A stretch of 60,509 bases of DNA from contig DATKAN010000017.1 in NCBI GenBank assembly GCA_035498035.1, positions 1-60,509 of the forward strand, written 5' to 3'. This document shows, piece after piece, positions 38,053 to 44,559 of this stretch. Source of the stretch: Nitrospiria bacterium. GTDB lineage: Bacteria > Nitrospirota > Nitrospiria > JACQBZ01. How positions within the stretch are numbered: position 1 is the first letter of the stretch; each line of letters opens with the position of its first letter. Below the pieces are notes generated by a model. It did no database searches. It had not been told where the DNA came from and saw only the letters and a list, made by a program, of their open reading frames with translations. The translations under genes and the position numbers were made by a program.

Positions 38053-39123
38053 ATGATCGAGATTGACGGAAGCCATGGGGAGGGCGGGGGCCAGATCCTC
38101 CGGACCAGCCTGGCCCTTTCGGCCTTGACCGGAACGCCGGTGAGGATACGCCGGATTCGATCGAGCCGGAAAGCCCCCGGGCTCAAACCCCAGCACCTGA
38201 TCAGCGCGAAAGCGGCCGCGCAGATCTGCCGCGGCAGCCTCGTCGGCGCGCGGGCGAATTCCACCGACCTCCGTTTCCTCCCCGGCGAGGTTCAGGCGGG
38301 GCGTCATGCCTTTGACGTGGGAACCGCCGGCTCCACAAGCCTGGTCCTCCAGACCCTCCTTCCTCCGCTGTCCTTTGCCGGAAGTCCCTCCCGAATCCTT
38401 GTGCACGGCGGGACTCACGTGGCCTGGAGCCCGCCGGCCGAATATCTGCGGGACGTTTTTCTGCACACCGTTTCGGCGATGGGCCTCCGGGCGCAGGTCA
38501 AAATTCGCCGATCGGGATTTTACCCCAGGGGCGGCGGAGAGATCGAAGCGATCGTGGAGCCGTCTCCGAGTTGTTTGAGGCCGCTCCGGATCGTGGAACG
38601 CGGCCGCTTGAAGTCCCTCCGGGTCATCTCAACGGTGGCCCGTCTCCCGTTATCGATCGCGGAGCGTCAGTTGAAACGGGCGACGCAACGGCTGGCCGAG
38701 CGGGGGTTGGCACCGCGGGGCGAGACCGGGACGGTCGAATCCCCGGGCCAAGGATCGTTTTGTTTCATTCGGGCCGATTTTGAAAACGTGAGGGCCGGCT
38801 TCTCGGCGCTGGGTGAACTCGGCAAGCGGGCGGAACGGGTGGCGGATGAAGCGGTGGAGGACTTCATCGGCTACTGGAACGGCCCCGGGGCTCTGGACCG
38901 TCATCTGGCGGATCAGGCCGCGCTCTACATGGCCCTGGCCGAAGGCGAATCGATGGTCACCGTCTCGGAAGTCACCGAACATCTCAAGACAAATCTCTGG
39001 GTGATTGAACGGTTCCTTCCGGTCACATTCGCTCTGGAGGAAAATCTTTCGGGCCGCGGGGGAACGCTCCGCGTAACCGGGACGGCCTTCCGCGGACGCC
39101 GGGCCGGCCACGAGGTATTTTGA
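38053..39123 (+). CDS. rtcA: RNA 3'-terminal phosphate cyclase
   Basis: A 356-residue enzyme converting RNA 3'-phosphate to a 2',3'-cyclic phosphate with ATP. Family blocks are intact: IDGSHGEGGGQILRTSLALS, RKAPGLKPQHLISAKAAAQI, FDVGTAGSTSLVLQTLLPPL, VHGGTHVAWSPPAEYL, YPRGGGEIE and the late SEVTEHLKTNLWVIERFLP, which carries the adenylated His. No RtcB or RtcR gene is adjacent. The sigma-54 regulator next door is not of the RtcR type because it has a receiver domain. It is convergent with the EamA transporter, with 6 nt between the ends. Confidence 0.95.
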   Translation: MIEIDGSHGEGGGQILRTSLALSALTGTPVRIRRIRSSRKAPGLKPQHLISAKAAAQICRGSLVGARANSTDLRFLPGEVQAGRHAFDVGTAGSTSLVLQTLLPPLSFAGSPSRILVHGGTHVAWSPPAEYLRDVFLHTVSAMGLRAQVKIRRSGFYPRGGGEIEAIVEPSPSCLRPLRIVERGRLKSLRVISTVARLPLSIAERQLKRATQRLAERGLAPRGETGTVESPGQGSFCFIRADFENVRAGFSALGELGKRAERVADEAVEDFIGYWNGPGALDRHLADQAALYMALAEGESMVTVSEVTEHLKTNLWVIERFLPVTFALEENLSGRGGTLRVTGTAFRGRRAGHEVF

Positions 39124-39129
39124 GTCGGA

Positions 39130-40050
39130 TTATTGTTTGACGGAGCGCGCGCGATCGGTCGTGATCACAACGACGGCGGCCACGATGATCGCGGCGGCCA
39201 GAAGGATTTGGGCCGAGAGCGTTTCGCCCCCGAGGACCCGGCCGAGGGTGACCGCCACGACCGGATTTACATAGGCGTAGGTCGAGGCGCGCGCGGGCGT
39301 GGTCGCGTTCAGCAGCCAGATATAGGCCGTGAACCCCACGAGCGAGCCGAAGACGATGAGGTAGGCCAACGAGAGGGCCGAGCGCGGGGAAACGGCGCCC
39401 AACTGCAACGCGGCGGCTTCGCCCGTCGCCAGCCCGGCCAGCAAGAGCAGCACGCCCCCCGTCAGCATCTCCATCGCCGTGGCCAGCAGCCGCGATTCCG
39501 GCAGCGGCGCACGCAGGGAGTAGAGCGATCCGGCCGCCCATGCCACGCCTCCTCCGATCAGCACGGCCGCCCCCGCCGGATCGATGCGATGGATGCCCGA
39601 CAGCTTTTCCGGTCCGACCAGCAGCGCCATCCCCGCAAGCCCCAATCCCAGCCCGGTCATAACCCAGGGACTCGGCCGGGCGCTGTTCCACCCAATCCAG
39701 TCCAAGAGGACCATCCAGATCGGCACGGTCGCGATCAACAACGACGCCAGCCCGGATGGGACCCGTTGCTCCGCCCAGACCACGGCCCCGTTGCCGACCG
39801 AGACGAGCAGGCCGCCGATCAGGGTCGTGGCGCCCCAGTGGATTCGGGCCGGCCGTTTTGCTCCGGCCAGACGTGACCAACCGTACAACACCGCGCCTGC
39901 GACCGCAAAACGAAAGCCCGCCATCAGGAAAGGCGGCAGCGTCTCGATCGCAAACCGAATCGCCAAAAACGTCGATCCCCAGATCAGGTAAACGGACGCA
40001 AATGCGGCGGCAACTTTGACCCGAAACGGCAGAGGCGTGGATGAACTCAA
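39130..40050 (-). CDS. EamA/DMT family transporter (YedA-like)
   Basis: A 306-residue protein with ten predicted transmembrane helices in two EamA repeats. The first has VYLIWGSTFLAIRFAIETLPPF and WAEQRVPSGLASLLIATVPI; the second has LIVFGSLVGFTAYIWLLN and YAYVNPVVAVTLGRVLGGE. These are the hallmark phrases of drug/metabolite exporters. The substrate cannot be deduced, although family members export amino acids or other metabolites. Confidence 0.9.
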   Translation of the reverse strand: MSSSTPLPFRVKVAAAFASVYLIWGSTFLAIRFAIETLPPFLMAGFRFAVAGAVLYGWSRLAGAKRPARIHWGATTLIGGLLVSVGNGAVVWAEQRVPSGLASLLIATVPIWMVLLDWIGWNSARPSPWVMTGLGLGLAGMALLVGPEKLSGIHRIDPAGAAVLIGGGVAWAAGSLYSLRAPLPESRLLATAMEMLTGGVLLLLAGLATGEAAALQLGAVSPRSALSLAYLIVFGSLVGFTAYIWLLNATTPARASTYAYVNPVVAVTLGRVLGGETLSAQILLAAAIIVAAVVVITTDRARSVKQ

Positions 40051-40156
40051 GAAACCGGATCTCCTTCAAGCGGATTATACATCAGAATCCGGCCCGGATT
40101 CACCTCAAGGATTGGGTTCAGGCAGCACAGACAGGCGTCGTTATCCAGCGAGCAGG

Positions 40157-40207
40157 GCGAGCGAGAGGGTGAGGACTTCGGCGAGCTCAGTCGAGCCGCT
40201 CGGCCGG
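40157..40207 (+). repeat. dispersed repeat, copy A
   Basis: It shares the left block GCGAGCGAGAGGG-GAGG and the middle block CTTCGRCGAGCYCRGTCGAG with copy B at 44400-44512, then ends near a CCGG half-stem. It lacks the right block seen in copies B and C. It lies upstream of the ACT-GlnE-like gene, outside any coding frame. Confidence 0.6.
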
Positions 40208-40331
40208 TGAAAGCGAGGATCGGGCTTGGCCCATCCGAGCGCGGGGTCTGGGGTCATCGGAGGACCAGTATTCTATTTTGCCGCACGGGCCCCCAGACAA
40301 GATAGGCCGCGACGCAAGCCCCTACAATCGA

Positions 40332-40361
40332 TTGAATCGGGAGATCGTCCTTCTGTATAGT
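40332..40361 (+). promoter_or_regulatory. promoter of the ACT-GlnE-like gene
   Basis: TTGAAT (40332-40337), an 18-bp spacer and TATAGT (40356-40361). The predicted transcript starts about 27 nt before ATG 40395, and GAAAGGA serves as ribosome site. Confidence 0.5.
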
Positions 40362-40394
40362 GTTAGGAAACACTCTTCCTGAAAGGACCCTCCG

Positions 40395-42683
40395 ATGGAG
40401 AACGGCCGGGATTTGAAAAAAACGATCGCGCTTCTCTCAAGGGACTCGGACCCTTCGGCCGTCCAGGACTTCGTCTCCGGAATGGATCGGGATTATTTTA
40501 CGGTTTTCACGCCGCGCGAGATCCGCACGCATCTTAAAATGTCCCTCGACCTGAACGCCGATCATCCGGTTCGACTTAAAATCACCCCGCGCGGAAAGGA
40601 CCGGTTCAACATCGCGATCGTGGCCTTCGATTATTTTTCGGAGTTTTCCATTCTGTGCGGCCTGCTCGCCTCCTTCGAACTCGAAATTCAAAAGGGCCAC
40701 AGCCATACCTTCCTGGATCGACGGCCCGGGCCGCAGCCGCCTTCTTTTCCACGGGGCCGCTGGCCCCGAAGGTTCGGCCGCCCGATCCCCGGTCGAAAAA
40801 AGATCGTCGACGTGTTCGACGTACGCGCGCGGCCGGGACAAGCGTTTACGGATGCCAAAAGGTTGGAATTTGAAAACGAGCTGGATCGGCTCATCCGTCT
40901 TTTGGGAGAGGGCCAATCGGAGGCGGTTCGGGAACACCTGAACCGCCGGCTGGTCGAGCGGATGGAGAAGCGGAAAAGCCCGTTTGCCGGGCTTCTTTAT
41001 CCGGTGGAGGTTCGATTCGACAACCGCAGCGATCCGCAATGGACCGTGATGGACGTCCATTCAAAGGACACTCCCGCCTTTCTCTACGCCCTCTCGAATG
41101 CCCTGGCCCTGAGGGACGTTTATATCCACAAGGTCCGGATTCAGAGCGTCCAGGCCGAGGCCCGCGACCGATTTTATATCTCGAACCGGCAGGGCCGCAA
41201 GATCGAGGGCGAGCGGGAGCAGAAGGCCCTGAGGATCGCCTTGGTCCTGATCAAGCAATTCACCCATTTTCTCCCCTGGGCCCCGGATCCGGCCAAGGCG
41301 ATCCGGTTTTTCGATCAACTCCTGGACAAAGTGATGGAGAAAAAAACGGCCGCCCCTTTCATCGAGCTGTTCAAAGAAAAGCAAGGGCTGGATCTCCTGG
41401 CCCATCTGCTGGGGGCCAGCGACTTTCTCTGGGAGGACTTCCTTCGGATGCAATTTGAGAACCTGATGCCCGTGTTGGAGGGCATCAAAAAACGGCCACG
41501 GCGGCCGGGAAAGCCGGCCCTCTCCCGGGACCTCGCGGCCCGACTCGCACGGGGCGCGACCCCGGATGAAAAGAAACGGATTCTGAATGAATTCAAGGAC
41601 CGCGAAATGTTTTCGATCGACATGAGCCATTTGATCGACCCCATGGCGACCCTGACCGATTTTTCATCCGCGCTTACGGATCTGGCCGAGGCGGTCGTGG
41701 ATCATGCCGCCCGTATCGGCCGCGAAGTTTTGCGCTCGAAACACGGCCGCCCGCGGCTGGAGAGCGGCGCGGTCTGCCCCTTCGCCGTCTGCGGCCTCGG
41801 GAAATTCGGCGGGCGGGAAATGGGATATGCCTCCGACATCGAGCTCCTGTTCGTCTACGGCGGGCCGGGGAGGACCGACGGTCCGGAATCGGTCGAGAAC
41901 AGCCTGTACTTTGAGCGACTGTGCCAGGAGATCCTCCGGCTCATCGAGGCCCGGCAGGAAGGGATCTTCCACATCGACCTCCGGCTCCGGCCGGACGGGA
42001 CCAAGGGTCCGCTGGCCGTCTCCCTGGACCGTTTTCGATCCTACTATCAGGCCGCCGGCGAGGCCGCGCCGTTTGAGCGACAGGCCCTGACCAAGCTCCG
42101 CTTCGTCGCCGGGGATCCTTCACTGGGTCGCGCCATCGAGGACCACCGCGACCGGTTCGTCTTCGGCGTCGAACCCTGGGACCGGGACTCGGCCCTCCAT
42201 CTCCGGCAGCGCCAGGTCCAGGAGCGGGTCCGGCCGGGGGGCGTGAACGTCAAATACAGCCCGGGGGGGATCATCGACATCGAATACGCCGCGCAGTATC
42301 TTCAAATCCAGCACGGCCATCGCCATCCGGAGTTGCGGACGCCCAATACGCTGGAGGCGCTGGACCGGCTCGGCCGCCTCCGGCTTCTCTCCAAGAAAGA
42401 CGTCGGCCTTCTCCGCGACGCCTATCTCTTTCTGAGAAATCTGATCGACGGACTTCGGATGGTCCGGGGCAACGCCGAGGACCTGATCCTGCCGGAGGAG
42501 TCCTCGGACGAATTCAAATTCCTCGCGCGGCGCCTGGGCTATCACGAGGCGGACTGGAAGAAGGGGGCGAGGAGGCTGGCCGACGACGTTCACCGCCACA
42601 TGAAGAACGTCCACGCGTTCTTCTCCCGACGGTTTTCCTTCCCCCCGACGGAATGGCCCCCCGGTCGGACGAAGCCCTCCTAA
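40395..42683 (+). CDS. ACT-domain protein with a single GlnE-type nucleotidyltransferase module
   Basis: A 762-residue protein. Residues about 30-190 resemble a degenerate ACT-like unit (LKITPRGKDRFNIAIVAFDY). About 203-290 form an ACT domain (WTVMDVHSKDTPAFLYALSN, LRDVYIHKVRI) like the C-terminus of GlnD. From about 420 there is one GlnE-type module: VCGLGKFGGREMGYASDIEL (about 466-484), FHIDLRLRPDGTKGPLAVSL, YYQAAGEAAPFERQALTKLR and IIDIEYAAQYLQI. GlnE adenylylates or de-adenylylates glutamine synthetase; normal enzymes have two such modules in one chain. The metal-binding pair reads S-D-I-E where family members have D-x-D. It faces the gene for another single module, and their 3' ends overlap by 4 bp. 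Confidence 0.8.
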   Translation: MENGRDLKKTIALLSRDSDPSAVQDFVSGMDRDYFTVFTPREIRTHLKMSLDLNADHPVRLKITPRGKDRFNIAIVAFDYFSEFSILCGLLASFELEIQKGHSHTFLDRRPGPQPPSFPRGRWPRRFGRPIPGRKKIVDVFDVRARPGQAFTDAKRLEFENELDRLIRLLGEGQSEAVREHLNRRLVERMEKRKSPFAGLLYPVEVRFDNRSDPQWTVMDVHSKDTPAFLYALSNALALRDVYIHKVRIQSVQAEARDRFYISNRQGRKIEGEREQKALRIALVLIKQFTHFLPWAPDPAKAIRFFDQLLDKVMEKKTAAPFIELFKEKQGLDLLAHLLGASDFLWEDFLRMQFENLMPVLEGIKKRPRRPGKPALSRDLAARLARGATPDEKKRILNEFKDREMFSIDMSHLIDPMATLTDFSSALTDLAEAVVDHAARIGREVLRSKHGRPRLESGAVCPFAVCGLGKFGGREMGYASDIELLFVYGGPGRTDGPESVENSLYFERLCQEILRLIEARQEGIFHIDLRLRPDGTKGPLAVSLDRFRSYYQAAGEAAPFERQALTKLRFVAGDPSLGRAIEDHRDRFVFGVEPWDRDSALHLRQRQVQERVRPGGVNVKYSPGGIIDIEYAAQYLQIQHGHRHPELRTPNTLEALDRLGRLRLLSKKDVGLLRDAYLFLRNLIDGLRMVRGNAEDLILPEESSDEFKFLARRLGYHEADWKKGARRLADDVHRHMKNVHAFFSRRFSFPPTEWPPGRTKPS

Positions 42684-44284
42684 GCGGGATCGGACGGCCC
42701 GCCGTCCCCGAAGCGATCCTGGAAGATCCGGTGCACCCGGCCCGTGTGGGCGTCATAGTCTTTTGAGAAACGGTCGACGGCGCTGTCGGGACCGCCGTCG
42801 CGATAACCCAAGCGGACGGCGCAGGCCCGGACCTCTCCGGCTTCCTCGGGGATGGCGTGGGTCTGAACATCCGAGACCATCTGGAGCTTGTTTTCGACAT
42901 CGCGCAGGAACCGGTAGGCGGCCGAAAGATCGCGATGCTCCGGCCCCGAGAGGAGGCCGTGTTCGAGCAGGCGCCGGAGGGCCTTCCGCGTGTTCCGTTC
43001 CCGGATTCCCGGGACCTTCCTTCCGAACGACGCCTGAAGCGATTGAACGATGAACTCGATCTCCCGGATCCCGCCGAATCCCAATTTGACATTCCGGCGG
43101 CTCTGTCCGCGGGCGGACAGTTTTTGATCGATGCGCTCCTTGATCCGTTTAACTTCGTCCTTCGCCTTGCGGTCAAACGGCCGGTCGTGGATAAAGGGTT
43201 TCACCTGTTTCAAAAATTTCATTCCGAGCAAACGGTCGCCCGCGACGGGCCAGACCTTGGTCAGGGCCAATCGCTCCCAGGTCTCTCCGCGGGAGGTGTA
43301 ATAACGCCGGAAGGCCTCCAAGGAATGGGCGAGGCTTCCCATTTTTCCCTCCGGGCGAAGCCGCAGGTCGACCCGGTAGACGTAACCCTCCGGCGTGACA
43401 TCGCTCAGCGCGGCCGTGATTTTTTGGGAGAGCCGCTTGAAATAGTCTTCCTTCGACATCGTCCCGGGCCGGCCCGAAGCGCCGTTTCGATATATCCCGC
43501 CCCGATCCGACGCGTAGAGATACATCAGGTCCACGTCCGAGCTGAAATTGAGCTCCCCGCCGCCGAGTTTGCCCATGGCTAATACGGTGAAACCCGTCCG
43601 GACCCTCCGGCCGGAGGGATCCTTGTGGAACGGCGTCCCCTGCTCGCGTCGCATCTGCCGCGCGGAGATTTCGTACGCCTTCTGGATCAGGACCTCGGCC
43701 AGGATCGAGAGGGCCGCCCCCGTTTCCTCGACGGTGGCCTTCTTCAAAAGATCCCGAACGCCGATGCGGAGAATTTCCCTTCGCTTGAAAATCCGGAGGA
43801 CGTCGAGCTGCTTCGGCACGGTCTTGAAATTCCTGAGGGCGTCGGAGAGGTCCCGCATCAGGTCCTTCTTTTTCCGCTCCCGATCCAGGAGCCGCGGATC
43901 CGAAATCCAATAGAGATATTCCGGATCACGGATCAGGATTTCGGCCATGAACGGGCTGCCGCCGAACGTGGTGGCCAGGAGCTCCAGGACCCGGGGGGTC
44001 TCTTTAAGATAGGAGAGCAGATGGATCCTGTTGATCGTCGTCCTGGTGAATCGTTCGAAAAGATTGAGGGCCTGATCGGGATCGGCAGAGCGGGACAGAC
44101 AACCCAGGAGCTCTTCGATGATCTCGGCCAGGAGTTGACGGGCACGAGGATCCTCCGCCATGGCCTGCAGGTTGGCATCGGCCTTCGAGACCTCTCTAAG
44201 CCCATACGGGCTCAGGAGCGAAGCGACCTGACCGGCGTCCAGCCGAGTGGCCAACACGAGATCTTTCGGATTCAACACCTTCAT
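42680..44284 (-). CDS. single-module GlnE-like protein (N-terminal adenylyl-removase type)
   Basis: About 534 residues, roughly half of a normal GlnE. It follows the layout of the N-terminal half: TFGGSPFMAEILIRDPEYLY, VLRIFKRREILRIGVRDL, then TVLAMGKLGGGELNFSSDVD (about 234-253) with an intact D-V-D metal pair, YRVDLRLRPEGKMGSLAHSL, RRYYTSRGETWERLALTKVW and GGIREIEFIVQSLQ. The helical end has HAIPEE. In two-module GlnE this half removes AMP from glutamine synthetase. ATG 44284 is chosen because upstream codons to 44614 read through repeat and promoter DNA. It is convergent with the ACT-GlnE-like gene, which carries the other module type. Confidence 0.82.
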   Translation of the reverse strand: MKVLNPKDLVLATRLDAGQVASLLSPYGLREVSKADANLQAMAEDPRARQLLAEIIEELLGCLSRSADPDQALNLFERFTRTTINRIHLLSYLKETPRVLELLATTFGGSPFMAEILIRDPEYLYWISDPRLLDRERKKKDLMRDLSDALRNFKTVPKQLDVLRIFKRREILRIGVRDLLKKATVEETGAALSILAEVLIQKAYEISARQMRREQGTPFHKDPSGRRVRTGFTVLAMGKLGGGELNFSSDVDLMYLYASDRGGIYRNGASGRPGTMSKEDYFKRLSQKITAALSDVTPEGYVYRVDLRLRPEGKMGSLAHSLEAFRRYYTSRGETWERLALTKVWPVAGDRLLGMKFLKQVKPFIHDRPFDRKAKDEVKRIKERIDQKLSARGQSRRNVKLGFGGIREIEFIVQSLQASFGRKVPGIRERNTRKALRRLLEHGLLSGPEHRDLSAAYRFLRDVENKLQMVSDVQTHAIPEEAGEVRACAVRLGYRDGGPDSAVDRFSKDYDAHTGRVHRIFQDRFGDGGPSDPA

Positions 44285-44312
44285 TTTAATCTCGGGCACC
44301 CCCCGGGGTCCT

Positions 44313-44318
44313 ATTATA
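44313..44318 (-). promoter_or_regulatory. -10 element for the GlnE-like gene
   Basis: A perfect TATAAT on the reverse strand, about 30 nt before ATG 44284. The -35 position is not consensus, so an activator may be needed. Confidence 0.4.
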
Positions 44319-44399
44319 CCGGTTATTGCGTTTCGGAGGAAGGCGTAACGCGAAGTCTTCGGGTTTGCATCATCAACGAGGATTTTCCAAGCGGGCGGG

Positions 44400-44512
44400 G
44401 CGAACGAGAGGGGGAGGACTTCGACGAGCCCGGTCGAGTTGCTCCCTCCGGTTGAGCCGGCCTGCACTCCGCGGTTCGCAGCCGAAGTGCGGAGGGGGCG
44501 AGGCGAGCCCCT
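44400..44512 (+). repeat. dispersed repeat, copy B (longest)
   Basis: It contains all three blocks: left GCGAACGAGAGGGGGAGG, middle CTTCGACGAGCCCGGTCGAG, and right GGGGGCGAGGCGAGCCCCT. Between the middle and right blocks are stem-loops (CCGG-TTGAG-CCGG and CTCCGC...GCGGAG). Copies A and C each keep two parts of this structure. Confidence 0.65.
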
Positions 44513-44529
44513 CCTCATCAGCATCTCGC

Positions 44530-44559
44530 TTGATTCTCGGATAACGTATTGGGTACAAT
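44530..44559 (+). promoter_or_regulatory. promoter of the barrel-Slp genes
   Basis: TTGATT (44530-44535), an 18-bp spacer, TACAAT (44554-44559). The predicted start is about 27 nt before the barrel ATG. Confidence 0.55.

Follow-up and report, generated by a model that had tools for sequence, protein, structure and literature searches.

Introduction

Glutamine synthetase adenylyltransferase, GlnE, is a textbook two-headed regulatory enzyme. In the enzyme of E. coli, the N-terminal half de-AMPylates and the C-terminal half AMPylates, with a regulatory domain placed between them and PII acting as the switch (PMC12409994). The subject of this work is a pair of genes located at positions 40395 to 44284 of a stretch of 60,509 nucleotides from a Nitrospiria bacterium (contig DATKAN010000017.1 of assembly GCA_035498035.1; this whole stretch is referred to as the window), which appear to encode both halves of such an enzyme as separate proteins, P0001 from the forward strand and P0002 from the reverse strand. 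The halves of the E. coli adenylyltransferase (ATase) were reportedly separated artificially, as AT-N and AT-C, by Jaggi et al. in 1997. The E. coli halves were divided at the same boundary as the pair described here, and separate activities are expected of the halves in either case. The latter separation, however, is natural and extends across the class, and regulatory ACT domains remain with the C-type half. Such a split could let each activity, with its signals, be studied singly.

Compared to E. coli GlnE (two PF03710 domains; family model PRK11072; domain structures 1v4a and 3k7d), the pair has both half types, each with a nucleotidyltransferase and a PF08335 domain and with acidic residues at the catalytic positions, and the target tyrosine is present in the GlnA of the genome. 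In contrast, one N-type and one C-type module are found on two chains encoded by opposite-strand genes instead of in a single polypeptide, two ACT domains lie ahead of the C-type module, and this module has D-x-E where the E. coli enzyme has D-x-D. With GlnD (TIGR01693), P0001 shares a tandem ACT region homologous to the glutamine-sensing C-terminus of that protein, but it departs from the nucleotidyltransferase-HD-two ACT order of GlnD, as no match to the HD (uridylyl-removing) domain is found, the ACT pair comes before and not after the catalytic module, and the catalytic domains are of the GlnE type. Moreover, an ordinary GlnD is present separately in the host genome.

Two intact genes with one GlnE module each

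The forward gene (40395..42683, + strand) encodes P0001, a protein of 762 aa with an ACT-ACT-GlnE layout whose module is assigned below to the C-type (adenylylating) half, and the reverse gene (42680..44284, - strand) encodes P0002, of 534 aa, a single GlnE module assigned to the N-type (deadenylylating) half. Both genes are intact and, as originally predicted, convergent, with a tail-to-tail overlap of 4 bp at 42680..42683, where CTAA provides the stop codon TAA on the + strand and TAG on the - strand; a relative (G008, locus L139) has an identical 4-bp overlap between the two genes. The reverse open frame could be extended 5′ as far as 44614; the frames of its relatives (542-544 aa in G006 and G001) favour a start near 44284.

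The original prediction of one GlnE-type module per gene agrees with the domain content of the proteins, as each carries a single PF03710 GlnE nucleotidyltransferase domain above the curated cut-off of 24 bits (151 bits in P0001, 41394..42137, +; 227 bits in P0002, 43208..43984, -) and, in the Pfam scan, a single PF08335 (GlnD_UR_UTase) helical domain (42216..42626, + and 42716..43144, -, respectively). Neither protein reached a curated NCBIfam cut-off: among the equivalogs PRK11072, PRK14108 and PRK14109, the best score was 201.5 for P0001 (PRK11072, cut-off 487) and 411 for P0002 (PRK14108, cut-off 724), each protein corresponding to about half of the model.

The split is class-wide in Nitrospiria

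The distribution of the pair was analysed in 58 genomes around the host, all of them belonging to the class Nitrospiria as judged from named relatives. The two modules were detected as opposite-strand neighbours in 43 of them, in a divergent (head to head) arrangement in 36 genomes of four families, which include the Nitrospira and Manganitrophus-type families, and in a convergent (tail to tail) arrangement in seven genomes of five families, that of the host among them. The genes were unpaired in two genomes (on different contigs in one, a truncated forward gene alone in the other), neither gene was found in the remaining 13, and none of the 58 had one intact gene without its partner. When the survey was extended to 246 genomes sampled across the phylum, GlnE was found in one chain in the other classes, mostly of ~930-1170 codons, and no fused GlnE was found in Nitrospiria, in both cases among the matches listed; the canonical GlnE chains tested had no ACT domains. 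The split is class-wide in Nitrospiria, being present in nearly all the sampled members that have GlnE, nitrite-oxidising and manganese-oxidising lineages among them. This conservation and the joint absence of both genes elsewhere in the class support the interpretation of the pair as one GlnE divided in two, in which case the expected wiring of nitrogen control would be altered in Nitrospira, an ecologically important genus.

Because the split pair recurs in at least 43 of the 58 genomes, chance and artefact are excluded as its source. Frameshifts or truncations in L030, L054 and G010 could suggest that the split stems from faulty assembly or sequencing, or from pseudogene decay, but this is extremely improbable for genes on opposite strands that are full length in most genomes and are also found in single-contig chromosomes.

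Both genes are missing in G002, from the same genus as the host, where the flanks of the region 40033-44548 of the window are conserved in the same order (contig C13, L185) with ~260 bp between them instead of 4.5 kb. As the flanking genes (RtcA, EamA, outer-membrane and Slp) are kept and a 26-residue remnant of the end of the reverse gene is found at the clean empty site (E 6e-4), both genes were probably lost together. Both are likewise missing in G003-G005, from the host family (95-96% complete).

Some individual sequences deserve a comment. In the complete genome of Manganitrophus sp. GAC4 (L054, 9818-12210), the forward gene is in two frames with the break between the ACT domains, due to either a sequencing error or a frameshift. 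In G010 (contig C55, L143, 6837-8480), it stops after about one-third of the C-type module, near the contig end, and the reverse gene was not found in that genome. A divergent split pair was also detected in a contig labelled as Nitrospinota (L031), whose N-type module branches within Nitrospiria; this contig is possibly misbinned or misnamed.

P0002 and P0001 correspond to different halves

In a tree of 115 modules, all the N-type modules (canonical, split, fused and permuted) were set apart from the remainder by a branch with 98% support in the Shimodaira-Hasegawa-like approximate likelihood ratio test (SH-aLRT), and the ACT-associated modules formed one clade (SH-aLRT 100%). The N/C divide was obtained again with a reduced set of modules (SH-aLRT 97%), both trees being unrooted. 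The positions strictly specific for one half were limited to four columns, too few to decide, and full profiles were used in their place. The log-odds against the canonical halves were +179 for P0002 and -76 for P0001, all the ACT-bearing modules (41/41) scored on the C side, and some fused N modules were neutral. By trees and profile scores, P0002 is classed as an N-type half and P0001 as a C-type half, as had been anticipated for the reverse and the forward gene, respectively. The possibility that both modules belonged to one half type, which had been named as a result that would refute the prediction, was not supported in view of the 97-98% SH-aLRT of the N/C branch and the opposite log-odds. 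A chimeric origin of the split pair, with the N module coming from a canonical GlnE and the C module from the ACT-bearing branch, is weakly supported by the approximately unbiased (AU) test (p-AU 0.033, for a group named after the tree had been seen).

The structure of P0002 was predicted with high confidence (predicted local distance difference test, pLDDT, 93) and matched the N-terminal ATase domain of E. coli, 1v4a, with a template modelling (TM) score of 0.87 of the target at 2.5 Å. The prediction for P0001 (mean pLDDT 83) has two ACT-type folds (59-171 and 205-295) followed by a GlnE-type fold, with a poorly predicted stretch at ~315-360 linking the ACT pair to the latter; its best PDB matches were the E. 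coli ATase domains, followed with weaker scores by ACT-bearing proteins.

The activities could nevertheless be allotted differently than in E. coli, with the ACT-bearing protein removing AMP under inhibition by glutamine and the other one adding it, or with both proteins carrying out the same reaction in response to different signals. The functions of the E. coli halves were assigned on few enzymes, the clade of ACT-bearing C modules joins the tree near the N/C divide, and the neutral scores of some fused N modules point in the same direction. This alternative is unlikely, however, as P0002 is clearly N-type and all the analyses placed P0001 on the C side, and the N-ACT-ACT-C order of the fused relatives described below parallels the canonical N-regulatory-C order.

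A conserved D-x-E signature in the ACT-bearing modules

All the N-type modules in the alignment have D-x-D plus a third Asp, and this is also the case for P0002 (D250-V-D252, 43529..43537, -; third carboxylate D306), in line with the intact D-x-D pair predicted for the reverse gene. The canonical C halves have D-x-D as well (16/16), whereas D-x-E accompanied by the third Asp is found in 40 of the 41 ACT-bearing C modules, as in D481-I-E483 of P0001 (41835..41843, +; third carboxylate D528). Like the presence of the split throughout the class, this feature of the forward module is an addition to the original prediction. The three catalytic carboxylate positions are therefore acidic in both proteins and, as judged from the alignment, D-x-E plus a third Asp is a conserved signature of the ACT-bearing C modules and not a sign of decay.

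On the other hand, the second catalytic Asp is replaced by Glu in 40 of the 41 modules with ACT domains and in none of the 32 canonical half-modules, which could mean that P0001 has little or no catalytic activity and serves as a regulatory subunit, whose ACT domains would sense glutamine and whose module would bind GlnA or P0002, the latter carrying out both reactions. We consider this improbable, because the three acidic positions are kept without decay across several phyla, pointing to a specific active site, and because D-x-E is permitted in the nucleotidyltransferase superfamily, for instance in kanamycin nucleotidyltransferase. The PDB structure matches included entries for E52D mutants of ANT-4″.

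P0001 has a tandem of GlnD-like ACT domains

The ~300 residues N-terminal to the module of P0001 align with the C-terminal end of GlnD models (TIGR01693 positions 606-842). When a profile of 40 P0001 relatives was compared by hhalign with the GlnD of the same genome, residues 18-282 of P0001 matched residues 626-859 of GlnD, covering both ACT domains, with a probability of 98.4 (E 5e-15). Thus, the original prediction of a GlnD-like ACT domain ahead of the forward module was right with respect to its kind and wrong with respect to its number, as two domains were found instead of one. The first (residues ~59-171; 40569..40907, +) was delimited by the predicted structure and by alignment to the first ACT domain of the host GlnD, and consists of strands 59-67, 70-78, 96-107 and 135-145 and helices 83-93 and 153-171, with a low-confidence loop at 116-132. 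The second (residues ~205-284; 41007..41246, +) was detected by Pfam, TIGR01693, hhalign and the predicted structure, its PF24931 match in the Pfam scan being slightly below the cut-off (25.8 vs. 27 bits), and D225 and F229 in its D-T-P-x-F-L-Y turn are invariant across the 40 relatives.

ACT-bearing GlnE proteins in other phyla

Relatives of P0001 were found fused to N-type modules in two other layouts. Single N-ACT-ACT-C chains of ~1200-1310 residues are present in Planctomycetota, Chloroflexota, Calditrichota and KSB1, with the ACT pair located where the canonical regulatory region lies, and permuted ACT-ACT-C-N chains in Spirochaetota and Omnitrophota (L050, L052, L053, L055 and L059), a rearrangement of GlnE worth a study of its own. 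This ACT-bearing branch is widespread and apparently undescribed, as a search of the open-access literature, subscription journals being outside its scope, yielded no relevant paper on a GlnE that has ACT domains or is naturally split.

No second GlnE was found in any of the 22 genomes with ACT-bearing GlnE that were checked, four Nitrospirota included, and glnA adjoins the gene in many relatives (L036, L040, L041, L044 and L052; the gene order is amtB-glnB-glnA-GlnE in L055), in Nitrospiria, Chloroflexota, KSB1, Spirochaetota and Omnitrophota. Therefore, there is strong circumstantial evidence for glutamine synthetase as the target of this branch. A more tentative proposal, to which we give somewhat less than even odds, is that in all three layouts (split, N-ACT-ACT-C and ACT-ACT-C-N) the ACT pair on the adenylylating module would sense glutamine directly, with less or no dependence on the GlnD-PII relay, and that in Nitrospiria writer and eraser would have become separate and separately transcribed. 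With the ACT pair, the site at which glutamine acts on GlnE could be tested directly.

Target and proposed mechanism

The host genome (2.67 Mb, 99% complete) was searched for further copies of glnE, glnD and glnA, as a full-length GlnE elsewhere would have argued against a split. No GlnE module was found apart from those of P0001 and P0002, and a third weak match was rejected because it falls within GlnD. There is a single glnA (469 aa), with the adenylylation motif DKDLYDLEP around Tyr397, in an amtB-glnB-glnD-glnA cluster on a contig other than that of the split pair; the GlnD of this cluster is ordinary and complete, with its own two ACT domains.

The genome also encodes three PII proteins, and GlnE/GlnD-type nucleotidyltransferases modify PII in other bacteria, so it is conceivable that the pair modifies a protein other than glutamine synthetase, such as PII, with GlnA as an incidental neighbour. 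This is quite improbable considering the direct adjacency to glnA in the five groups mentioned above, the lack of another GlnE for a GlnA that retains its target tyrosine, and the presence of an ordinary GlnD already available for PII.

Our preferred interpretation, to which we assign a probability of about 0.68, is that the pair is a GlnE split at its half boundary, in which P0002 removes AMP and P0001 adds it under the control of glutamine through its ACT domains. Because of the homology to the E. coli halves, we infer that P0002 (N-type, D-x-D) would take AMP off Tyr397 of GlnA by phosphorolysis and that P0001 (C-type, D-x-E) would attach it to the same residue. When nitrogen is plentiful, glutamine would be bound by the ACT pair of P0001, adenylylation would be stimulated and glutamine synthetase turned down. 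The pair is probably still subject to the influence of PII and PII-UMP, produced by the separate GlnD, and P0001 and P0002 may associate. As suggested in the original prediction, the arrangement could also allow the separate expression of the two activities.

Several points weigh against this interpretation. The activities of P0001 and P0002 were assigned from sequence and structure prediction, and with D-x-E in place of D-x-D, catalysis by P0001 might be changed or lost. The position of the ACT-bearing C clade relative to the canonical C halves is weakly resolved in the unrooted tree, and a clade of the canonical C halves alone was not rejected (p-AU 0.40). Structural comparison to the E. coli halves, proposed as a check of the prediction, held for P0002 with 1v4a and did not separate N from C for P0001, whose fold fits 1v4a better than 3k7d. 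Also, the tyrosine of GlnA is weak evidence, as most genomes without GlnE retain it.

For this same reason, the tyrosine was discarded as uninformative when considered as a marker of co-loss. Among the genomes without GlnE, Phe was found at this position only in G012 (L165), which is 85% complete.

Other features around the pair

A match to a sigma-70-like promoter (TTGAAT-18-TATAGT, 40332..40361, +), identified by consensus alone, is located just 5′ of the forward gene as a putative signal. Further upstream, the gene for RtcA (RNA 3′-terminal phosphate cyclase; 38053-39120, + strand of the window) was found in three of the seven family members searched.

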